A stretch of 50,002 bases of DNA from contig JAUVYV010000025.1 in NCBI GenBank assembly GCA_030602885.1, forward strand, positions 1 through 50,002. Direction: 5' to 3'. Of this stretch, positions 43,823-49,501 are shown in pieces. The position numbers and the translations under genes are program-made. The stretch comes from Phycisphaerales bacterium (GTDB lineage Bacteria; Planctomycetota; Phycisphaerae; Sedimentisphaerales; Anaerobacaceae). Each line of letters begins with the position of its first letter. The first letter of the stretch is position 1. Under the pieces are notes generated by a model that saw nothing but the letters and a program-made list of their open reading frames with translations, was not told the DNA's origin and searched no databases.

Positions 43823-43950
43823 CACGGGCATCTTGCCCGTGAATAAAGTTGTCATTCCCGCGAAACTTGTCCCCAAGGGAGCGGGAATCCAAAATCTGAA
43901 AAATCAGTGTCAATTTATCCCTACCGAAGGGGAATCTGTGTCTAAAAAAC
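43823..43950. repeat. Dispersed palindromic repeats between pyrK and pyrD
   Basis: CACGGGCA (43823-43830) pairs with TGCCCGTG (43834-43841). Next comes a GTCATTCCCGCG...GCGGGAATCC element (43851-43890), a form known in many bacteria and present again at 47628-47650. Last is AATCAGTGTCAAT...AATCTGTGTCTAAAAAAC (43902-43950), whose TCTAAA supplies the stop codon of pyrK. Confidence 0.65.
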
Positions 43951-47048: not shown

Positions 47049-47750
47049 CCGCCGGCGGTTCTATTTCGCCCCGTCCTCCGGGCGGGGCCTGCTTACCCAT
47101 CATCGCCTGCCCCGCAGGCGAAATATATAACCCCCGGTTTCACCGGTGGGTTGCAGGCGTGAGGCTCGCTTACCATTTTACCGAAGTCCTTGACTTCGGG
47201 GATCATTCCAATCGCTTCCCCCGCAAGCGACAATTTAGCCGGGGTCTTCGGCCCCGGTTGCAAACGTGAGGCCCACTCACCCTATTCGCCTGCCCCGCAG
47301 GCGAAGTATATAACCCCCGGTTTCACCGGTGGGTTGCAGGCGTGAGGCTCGCTTACCCAATTGAGGCCGCAGGCCTCAACTATTTCGCCCCGTCCTCCGG
47401 GCGGGGGCGCAAACGCAAGGATCACTCACCCCTATTCGCCTGCACCGCAGGCGATGTATATAACCCCCGGTTTCACCGGGGGTTGCCCCCCTGGAGTTTA
47501 CCCTCGAGTGGTTGCTCACTTGGCCCAACAACAGAGGGCGAGGTATGCTTACCCCTCATCGCCTGCACCGCAGGCGACATATTTCCCCCCGTTTACCCCG
47601 TGAGATGATTTATCTATCTCACCGGGGTCATTCCCGCGAACGCGGGAATCCAGATATTTAGCCCCCGGTTTCACCGGGGGTTGCCCACGCCAGGTCCACT
47701 CACCCCAATCGCCTACCCCGCAGGCGACTATTTCCCCCCTACGTGGCATG
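47049..47750. repeat. Array of paired DNA hairpins (about 18 hairpins in 0.7 kb)
   Basis: Recurring module: hairpin X (TCGCCTGC-nCC-GCAGGCGA), a 9-base AT-rich linker such as AATATATAA, then hairpin Y (CCCCCGG-TTTCA-CCGGTGGG), then TTGC...CTCACCC. X starts at 47103, 47286, 47436, 47559 and 47709; Y starts exactly 28 bases after X at 47131, 47314 and 47464. Modules at 47212-47257 and 47361-47406 keep the geometry with changed but still pairing stems (TCGCTT/AAGCGA; TTGAGGCC/GGCCTCAA; CCCCG/CGGGG). Extra hairpins lie at 47181-47199 and 47596-47680, where a GTCATTCCCGCG-type element is inserted. I recognise no known element of this form. Confidence 0.85.
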
Positions 47751-47791: not shown

Positions 47792-49501
47792 TCATTTGCG
47801 TGTTCGCCTTATCAGCGTTTCCAGTTTCGCTCTGCCGACTTTGTCCGTTTTTGTACCGACAATGCGGGCAGGCAACCGATAGGTCAATTCCCCGACATCA
47901 ACGTCAATGTGCCTCTCGTCGCCCTCCTCGATCTCATTTCTTACCCACGGGCGATCTGCACAGGTCTCCCAGAAACGCTGCGGGCTTCGAAAGTCTCGCG
48001 ACCGGAATCTCGAGCGAAGCGTGTTGAGGGAGATCACCGGCACTTGTTTCGGGTCAATTTTTGAGTGCGGTTCAGCGTCGGTCGTAGCCGCTATTCCCAC
48101 ATAATACTTTATTCTCTCCCACGGAACAAACTTAAACTTCTGCTGCTTCTCTTTAATGGGCATTGCCTTTAAGATGCGAATTGCACACAGCACTTGCTTC
48201 TGCGCCTTTAGCATGACCTTTGCCGCATCGTTGACTTCATTAATCTCATCAGGGGGTAGGATTGCCTTCGCCTCTATGATGAGTAACTCAGCAGGTTTCG
48301 CAGAAAGCCAGAGGAGAACGTCAACATCGGTTTCCTCTCCATCTGCCGCGATCCGCTCCTCAAGCTTATACTGGTAACCGCGTTTGTTGAACTCGGCACC
48401 TATCAACTGCGCAAGTGGTCGATCACGGCACCCATTAACAGTCGCTGCATAATTGCTCATAGCCTTGGGGCCACGCGCCATGACCTTCAGCAGGTTCCGC
48501 TCATGCCTCATCTTCATAACCACTGTGGGGCTCCACGCAATCCTATTCTCGCTGTGAAGAAATGGTGTGAGCAGAATGTCAGCTTTCGGGCCTGGCTGGT
48601 ATGTCAAACGATTCAGAACCGCCTTAACTTTTGCCGCATCCAGATTGCCCAGGCGGGAAACCTGCTCAACAAAAAAAGCTTCGTCCACCAACTGTGTTGG
48701 CATGCACTCGTGCTGTGGAATTCTTTCCCGCACACAGCGGCAATACCGCATGAAGGCCGCGTGGCTCCACGCAGTTATTGTCCCTATGAAACTCCAAAAG
48801 TCATCAATGGTAAAGCCCATCAAATCGGTACCCACGGGCAGAGCAACATGCTCAAGCCCCCTTGTCGTAAGAAGCGTTTCTCCAAGACAAGGCACAAGGT
48901 CATCTGGCAACGGGGCAAGAATGATACGTCCCTCGACCAAGTCATGTCCGACGCCAGCAAGCACATGCTTTGAGCGAGTCACATCTGTTGAATTCATCCC
49001 CAACGCCAGGTCCATCCCACGGTTGGTTTGGTCGCGCACCTGCTCATGCCAAGCTGCTGTATCGCTCTGCCCTGGCCCAGTGATAGAGTCAAATGTCACC
49101 GTCTTGTTGCCAGCATCGATTGTTACCCCGGCAAGGCCGCGTCCATACATCATGTGGAAGTCTGCGATGTTCACGTAGTCCGAAGCGAAAAGCATGTACT
49201 TATGCGCCGACGCAATTAGGTCGTGATCGGCTACACTTTTCACGCTGGTTCCTCCTTCTTCGCAAAGCCAACGCAGCGCTTGTGTCACGCCCTCCTCTGA
49301 CTGCTTCAACCGTTGCCCTGCTCCACCAGTGATCAACGGCGGTACATTACTCGACATCAGAGTGAGGAACATGGAATCCGGAATCGTCAACACCGCATAA
49401 GTTGCCTCGGCTCGGGACATTCTCCACAAATCCAAAGTCTTATGATGTTCGTCAAGCTGGCGCTCGTATTCTCGGAACAGAATTTCATCGTCAGCGTTCA
49501 T
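47792..49501 (-). CDS. Uncharacterised protein with a PD-(D/E)XK nuclease-type motif
   Basis: A 569-residue soluble protein. In the C-terminal half, GAEFNKRGYQYKL (about 368-380), ETDVDVLLWLS and LLIIEAKAIL give a D392/D394 ... E410-A-K412 pattern typical of PD-(D/E)XK nucleases, as in restriction, repair or DNA-end-processing enzymes. Residues 1-360 are mixed helical, with cysteine/histidine-rich parts (MRYCRCVRERIPQHECMP) and no family that I recognise. GGGAAG precedes ATG 49501. It stands alone, right beside the hairpin array and flanked by repeats, which would suit a defence or mobile-DNA role; that is inference. Confidence 0.8.
   Translation of the reverse strand: MNADDEILFREYERQLDEHHKTLDLWRMSRAEATYAVLTIPDSMFLTLMSSNVPPLITGGAGQRLKQSEEGVTQALRWLCEEGGTSVKSVADHDLIASAHKYMLFASDYVNIADFHMMYGRGLAGVTIDAGNKTVTFDSITGPGQSDTAAWHEQVRDQTNRGMDLALGMNSTDVTRSKHVLAGVGHDLVEGRIILAPLPDDLVPCLGETLLTTRGLEHVALPVGTDLMGFTIDDFWSFIGTITAWSHAAFMRYCRCVRERIPQHECMPTQLVDEAFFVEQVSRLGNLDAAKVKAVLNRLTYQPGPKADILLTPFLHSENRIAWSPTVVMKMRHERNLLKVMARGPKAMSNYAATVNGCRDRPLAQLIGAEFNKRGYQYKLEERIAADGEETDVDVLLWLSAKPAELLIIEAKAILPPDEINEVNDAAKVMLKAQKQVLCAIRILKAMPIKEKQQKFKFVPWERIKYYVGIAATTDAEPHSKIDPKQVPVISLNTLRSRFRSRDFRSPQRFWETCADRPWVRNEIEEGDERHIDVDVGELTYRLPARIVGTKTDKVGRAKLETLIRRTRK

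Follow-up and report, generated by a model that had tools for sequence, protein, structure and literature searches.

The segment at positions 47049–47750 of the window (the whole stretch of 50,002 nucleotides that was analysed, which is contig C108 in a genome of 3.2 Mb and 128 contigs) is in all likelihood a REP-type cluster, that is, a RAYT-driven REP/BIME-like array. It was very probably spread by small single-strand-DNA transposases (RAYTs) that have the same hairpins at the ends of their genes. The earlier note on this DNA did not recognise a described element here, but the array is recognisably REP/BIME-like, and the main surprise is not an unknown class but the extent and the clean rules of TTAG-tagged REPs in Phycisphaerae. 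REP elements are known mainly from Proteobacteria; the transposase clade described below points to a large Planctomycetota branch with a tag of its own.

Nine perfect hairpins with a stem of at least 7 bp and a loop of 3–8 nt lie in the segment, as opposed to 0.26 expected from first-order shuffles (maximum 2 in 100 shuffles), and with stems of at least 6 bp the count is 12 versus 1.3 expected in shuffles. Once G-U pairs and mismatches are allowed, some 18–20 hairpins can be made out by eye, far above chance and in line with the roughly 18 in 0.7 kb counted in the earlier note. X hairpins start at 47103, 47212, 47286, 47361, 47436, 47559 and 47709, and Y hairpins at 47069, 47131, 47239, 47314, 47388, 47464 and 47662. 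The repeating unit is a module of about 75 nt in which a CTAAAT-type linker joins hairpins X and Y, and a conserved A-box separates Y from the X that follows; on the minus strand the order is A-box, Y, linker, X. All modules of the array run head-to-tail in the same direction. The distances given earlier are exact: X and Y start 28 nt apart in three modules and 27 nt apart in two, and hairpins of the main X type follow each other at 183, 150, 123 and 150 nt, which is mostly two 75-nt units with other X types in between. The unit behind these spacings, and the A-box as a third conserved part, are additions to that description. At another locus, L007, tandem 75-nt units are plain, with Y starts at 1474 and 1549. 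The features of the array are as follows (strand given where the feature has one):

47049–47750, minus strand (the direction in which the transposase genes read): the full array, REP-like modules arranged head-to-tail
47069–47087: Y-type hairpin CCCCGTCCTCCGGGCGGGG with plus-strand foot TTCG, part of a 27-nt stretch repeated exactly at 47380–47406
47103–47121: X hairpin 1, stem 8 bp, loop 3 nt
47131–47149: Y hairpin 1 (CCCCCGGTTTCACCGGTGG)
47150–47171, minus strand: A-box, between Y and the next module
47181–47199: additional CCGAAGTC..GACTTCGG-type hairpin, found at L008 and L018 as well
47212–47230: X hairpin 2 (TCGCTTCCCCCGCAAGCGA)
47239–47257: Y hairpin 2, TTTAG foot directly before it on the plus strand; the same hairpin flanks the C69 RAYT gene
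47257–47278, minus strand: A-box
47286–47304: X hairpin 3
47314–47332: Y hairpin 3
47333–47354, minus strand: A-box
47361–47379: X hairpin 4, with a different stem (TTGAGGCC/GGCCTCAA)
47388–47406: Y hairpin 4
47436–47454: X hairpin 5
47464–47482: Y hairpin 5
47559–47577: X hairpin 6
47596–47627: long Y-like hairpin CCCCG-TGAGAT..ATCTCA-CGGGG, also at L003, L015 and L018
47630–47649: REP of the CGTC/dRS3 type (family described in passages of PMC3733652), GTC-ATTCCCGCGAACGCGGGAAT-CCA, inserted in the array and adjoining Y6
47662–47680: Y hairpin 6, TTTAG foot on the plus strand
47709–47727: X hairpin 7 (TCGCCTACCCCGCAGGCGA)

On the minus strand, hairpin Y usually reads CCCCCGGTGAAACCGGGGG or CCGGGGCCGAAGACCCCGG, the linker CTAAATGG, TTATATACA or GAAATAG, and hairpin X TCGCCTGCGGGGCAGGCGA, TCGCTTGC.. 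or TTGAGGCC..; the A-box follows the consensus RAGYnnnCCTCRCGnnnGCAMC on the same strand, or, in a longer version, GGGTRAGYnnnCCTCRCGnnTGCAAC. The repeat itself is built as TTAG, an 8-bp stem and a 3-nt loop, with a CT within the linker (CTAAAT). Several Y copies of the array have other feet (ATAA, TTCG), and because these differ from TTAG some of the copies may be dead. There are exact duplicates inside the array, and the series of modules is interrupted by three other hairpins: CCGAAGTC..GACTTCGG and the long TGAGAT..ATCTCA hairpin, both of which are present elsewhere in the genome, and ATTCCCGCG..CGCGGGAAT with GTC/CCA ends. Stretches akin to the hairpin at 47630–47649 (ATTCCCGC..GCGGGAAT) are found near modules at L003, L007 and L008. 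Outside the array, the window has a hairpin at 43823–43841 (CACGGGCATCTTGCCCGTG), which we take to be possibly another dispersed repeat of planctomycete genomes.

The short palindrome is repeated many times in the host genome, as expected of a REP. X alone has 23 copies with at most one mismatch, the reversed control having none. The covariance-model search for further copies that had been proposed was run on the module and gave 62 matches at E≤0.1, 44 of them at E<1e-4 over 18 contigs, counts that include the 15 modules on which the model was trained and that rest on the 150 of 1613 first-look candidates that were scored. The copies of X and the model matches contradict the possibility, raised in the earlier note, that there might be no other copies. 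Of 29 module copies, a rough overlap test places six within an ORF of at least 120 aa, two of these being the C69 copies beside the RAYT gene.

The host genome encodes six Y1_Tnp genes (Pfam, above cut-off). Five of them form one clade with proteins of about 149 aa, and these five lie elsewhere in the genome, away from the array. In the flanks of all five, hairpins precede CTAAAT or a close variant of it, and the flanks of the C69 and C19 genes are X-linker-Y-A-box modules of the window type; the product of the C69 gene contains NHVHVV and is Y1_Tnp by Pfam. The NCBIfam IS200 and RAYT models match the clade weakly and below their cut-offs (NF047646, RAYT: 15–35 bits for the five proteins, with a cut-off of 80 bits). 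An AlphaFold2 model of a clade member, with 27 relatives as input, has a pLDDT of 93.5, and the predicted fold matches the IS608, IS200 and ISDra2 TnpA structures with Z scores of 13–14 (IS608 about 14) and the E. coli TnpAREP-REP complex 4er8 with a Z score of 10.4. The HUH residues H85 and H87 and the tyrosine Y143 are invariant in the clade, whose Tyr motif is YVxxH, rarely with Q. The proteins combine the HUH motif, the catalytic Tyr and the Y1 fold that mark a RAYT/TnpAREP protein, and the predicted structure suggests that the clade consists of divergent RAYT-like Y1/HUH transposases. We found 326 related genes in genome records, the best 80 of which come nearly all from Phycisphaerae/Sedimentisphaerales or from unclassified Planctomycetota MAGs. 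Among 60 genomes of the same taxonomic family, 34 have the clade.

As is the case for RAYT-associated REPs, copies of the repeat flank a Y1/HUH tyrosine transposase gene. An upstream hairpin with a CTAA-type tag is present at 46 of 62 clade genes of the family (2.0% in shuffles), and a downstream TTAG-type tag with a hairpin at 33 of 62 (0.9%). A second set of 85 genes (80 GTDB-collection loci plus the five host genes), which overlaps the first and shares many of its genomes, has the upstream tag at 59 of 83 and the downstream tag at 51 of 84, with 1.8 and 0.8 expected. Altogether, Y-type hairpins with a CTAA/TTAG foot occur at one or both gene ends at 30–60 times the shuffle frequency. The downstream foot is TTAG in 39 of 51 cases and ATAG in four. 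Where an element has both ends, these are inverted copies of each other with the TTAG foot; in the genes of the host genome and several others with X, any downstream copies seen are in direct, not inverted, orientation. Upstream of the transposase gene, X comes after the Y tag in nine of 38 flanks over all lineages, versus 1.5 expected, most clearly in the lineages with an A-box. X and the A-box are limited to part of the clade, and with nine of 38 upstream flanks X was rejected as a universal part of the element.

In the related genomes that we compared, most transposase genes are syntenic and the flanking genes of most pairs are homologous, and the idea that the gene and its hairpins hop as one unit was therefore dropped. 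Blocks of similarity between relatives often stop near hairpins. The most suggestive exception to synteny is the pair L050/L179, 93.6% identical and without matching flanking genes. At L173, inverted TTTAG-hairpin...hairpin-CTAAA pairs (REPIN-like) lie on both sides of the transposase gene, and parts of them are missing at the syntenic L200, which makes L173/L200 a candidate case for presence/absence evidence of mobility. At L118, L121, L126, L130 and other loci, the downstream hairpin has a TTAG foot that overlaps the stop codon (TAG) of the transposase gene. At L030, L031, L044, L046 and L119, the X hairpin sits directly upstream of the gene, about 20–40 nt before the start, and in several of these a −10-like box (TAGAAT, TATTAT) comes after X; in this position X may also affect expression of the gene.

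Hairpins and transposase also go together across the family. The pattern CCCC-N11-GGGGCTAA has 590 matches in the 60 genomes versus 11 for the reversed control. With genomes treated as independent although they share phylogeny, the median number of tagged hairpins is 12.5 in genomes with the transposase and 0 in those without (Mann-Whitney p=1.4e-7), and the number of TTAG-tagged hairpins correlates with the transposase with a Spearman coefficient of 0.66. G019 and G065, which are 74% and 83% complete, have at least five tagged hairpins and no detected clade gene. Very high counts are seen in G009 (58) and G016 (142). Since G009 combines its many hairpins with a single, distant clade member, its enzyme may be undetected or lost.

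We used three covariation tests that locate their sites without using the hairpin itself. At the 14 distinct 19-mers between A-box and linker (Y sites), 92.9% of the stem pairs are standard, compared with 69.6% after shuffling of the 3′ sides (maximum of 1000 shuffles, 78.6%), and there are 21 double changes versus seven in shuffles (maximum 14). A stem of at least 6 bp follows the linker at 21 of 32 X sites over several genera, versus 0.64 expected, with stems as unlike as TCGCCTGC, TGAGGCC, AACGCCCG, AACGACCAT and ACCACTGGC. In the 61 distinct N11 sequences among the matches listed, the four inner pairs are paired in 78% versus 50% (maximum 58%), and double changes number 84 versus 30 (maximum 45). 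The shuffles leave relatedness in, which makes these tests strong though not formal phylogenetic ones. The compensatory stem changes described earlier are thus upheld at Y, at X and at the TTAG hairpins of the 60 genomes, and paired changes support the view that the folded shape rather than the stem sequence is conserved. The loop region behaves differently from the stem: its similarity tracks the identity of the transposases (Mantel r=0.47, p=2e-4), with a value of 0.14 for the stem. The loop is shared at 87% between the ends of a single element, versus 59% between elements, and 56 stem pairs differ on both sides between the two ends, a comparison in which one-sided changes are absent by construction, only perfect hairpins having been taken. 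Conserved loops and feet together with stems that change in pairs would be as expected if an enzyme reads foot, loop and shape.

These data bear on a very unlikely alternative, in which dead hairpin repeats without a current enzyme are duplicated passively in tandem and their stems co-vary only via recombination between copies. It would account for the exact duplicates inside the array and for the non-TTAG feet of several copies. However, paired but unlike stems across genera, with foot and loop kept, require either selection or filtering for pairing by an enzyme, and intact transposase genes flanked by the same modules exist in the host genome.

Structured RNA was one of the three guesses of the earlier note, the others being a single-strand-DNA recognition array and a nucleoid or replication site; the recognition array fits best, as the hairpins flank a Y1/HUH clade. 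RNA folding z-scores of the segment are very low on both strands (−12.3 on plus, −11.8 on minus), both genes that border the array are read on the minus strand, and effects of REPs on mRNA stability and termination are known from elsewhere (work cited in passages of PMC6006769), all of which would suit a structured RNA or host-selected mRNA 3′-end or terminator elements with an incidental association with transposase genes. Yet Rfam gives no match over 47049–47750, either at the gathering score or at E≤1, hairpins of this type are inverted at both ends of transposase genes, and their copy number follows the transposase. In addition, the array is absent upstream of the homologous sodium:solute symporter genes of nine relatives; it is recent or lineage-specific at its locus for this reason. 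We regard the RNA reading as highly improbable. An effect of the array on the mRNA 3′ end of the neighbouring minus-strand gene (47792–49501) is possible.

This neighbour, a 569-aa ORF, has no Pfam or PADLOC match. A D...ExK-like stretch within it (DVDVLLWLSAKPAELLIIEAK) may represent the core of a PD-(D/E)xK nuclease. The possibility that this ORF encodes the enzyme of the array was rejected in the absence of a family match, the relevant enzymes being elsewhere in the genome. Several recombinases are able to bind single-stranded hairpins whose loops are conserved, and a recognition array for some other enzyme (an attC-like integron integrase, CRISPR, replication-site hairpins or the neighbouring putative nuclease) might look similar. 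Against this, the array lacks the regular unique spacers of a CRISPR and its units are non-identical, in agreement with the earlier exclusion of a CRISPR; the neighbour belongs to no matched family; and the modules sit at Y1 transposase genes and vary in number with that gene. An enzyme of this kind is extremely improbable.

The RAYT-driven REP/BIME-like array remains our preferred reading, and a mechanism can be proposed for it. The Y hairpin with its TTAG foot would be the substrate of the RAYT/TnpAREP-like Y1/HUH transposase, which would bind it in single-stranded form, for instance on the lagging-strand template, and would recognise the TTAG foot and the loop while tolerating any paired stem. 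The enzyme would then cut at the nearby CT (linker CTAAAT) and rejoin the strands, scattering modules between genes, and further duplication by strand transfer or replication slippage would yield head-to-tail arrays. X and the A-box would be lineage-specific accessory parts, our best guess being a second recognition or strand-choice hairpin. Single-strand binding, CT cleavage and mobilisation by the clade are proposed by likeness to TnpAREP systems; that it seeded and spread the window array we infer from a build shared with TnpAREP substrates and from variation such a reader would allow. A bolder version, which we consider rather unlikely, is that X-linker-Y-A-box is a new kind of REP made of one-strand, head-to-tail two-hairpin units, in which adjacent units supply one transposase dimer with its left and right ends and single units are cut out and joined as single-stranded DNA, driven by a distinct TTAG-reading RAYT class of Phycisphaerae. 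The Planctomycetota branch offers hundreds of natural variants with constant foot and loop and a stem changing in pairs, and with these the rules by which HUH transposases recognise DNA hairpins become directly testable, including a possible shift of the cleavage site by T for G as first base of the guide.

Among known systems, TnpAREP enzymes bind single-stranded REP hairpins and cleave them at CT, according to passages of PMC8266576. There, the S. maltophilia REP is described as a tetranucleotide, a perfect 8-bp stem and a 3-nt loop, cut at CT, and the stem and loop lengths are the same here; in Marinomonas, loop positions matter and a whole-stem swap has a moderate effect on cutting. As in the GTAG REP/REPtron systems of S. 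maltophilia K279a and E. coli (passages of PMC8266576 and PMC3733652), the present repeats are short (near-)perfect palindromes with a 4-nt unpaired foot that flank a Y1/HUH gene, are clustered, and have alternative but complementary stem residues. Unlike these, they pair Y with an X hairpin and an A-box. The foot, TTAG in 39 of 51 downstream ends, is neither GTAG nor one of the GYAG, GYRG, GTRG, GTMG or GTGG variants reported in passages of PMC3733652, which touch other positions, and the strictly defined GTAG superfamily therefore excludes the present repeats. The transposases of the clade end in YVxxH, their NCBIfam RAYT scores stay under the cut-off, and the head-to-tail arrangement differs from most known REP families, in which head-to-tail dimers are absent or rare according to the same passages. 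The CGTC REP/dRS3 hairpin inserted in the array at 47630–47649 belongs to a different family, which passages of PMC3733652 describe as having no known associated transposase. With BIMEs and REPINs the array shares mosaic REP clusters and, in relatives (L173), inverted REP pairs; in contrast to them, the window modules all point in one direction and each joins two unlike hairpins. Structurally, IS200/IS605 elements (IS608, ISDra2) match the transposase best, with Z about 14, and they have subterminal hairpins with a 5′ guide tetranucleotide, whereas the hairpin ends are here often inverted copies of each other and the clade genes are mostly syntenic among relatives, with no sign of the gene moving as a unit. 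The nearest described planctomycete group, going by passages of PMC6006769, is class 3 of the TnpAY1 proteins of Quentin et al. (2018), from Planctomycetes and Acidobacteria, which likewise comprises planctomycete Y1 proteins with atypical flanking secondary structures, sometimes in high copy; its reported CnGA foot and Y----Q motif differ from the TTAG and YVxxH of the present clade, which may belong to class 3 or be new. The passages on REP/RAYT families in PMC3733652, PMC6006769 and PMC8266576 hold no description of a two-hairpin X-Y unit with an A-box. The array differs from described REPs in the TTAG foot, the paired X-Y unit, the head-to-tail tandems and the divergent RAYT clade.
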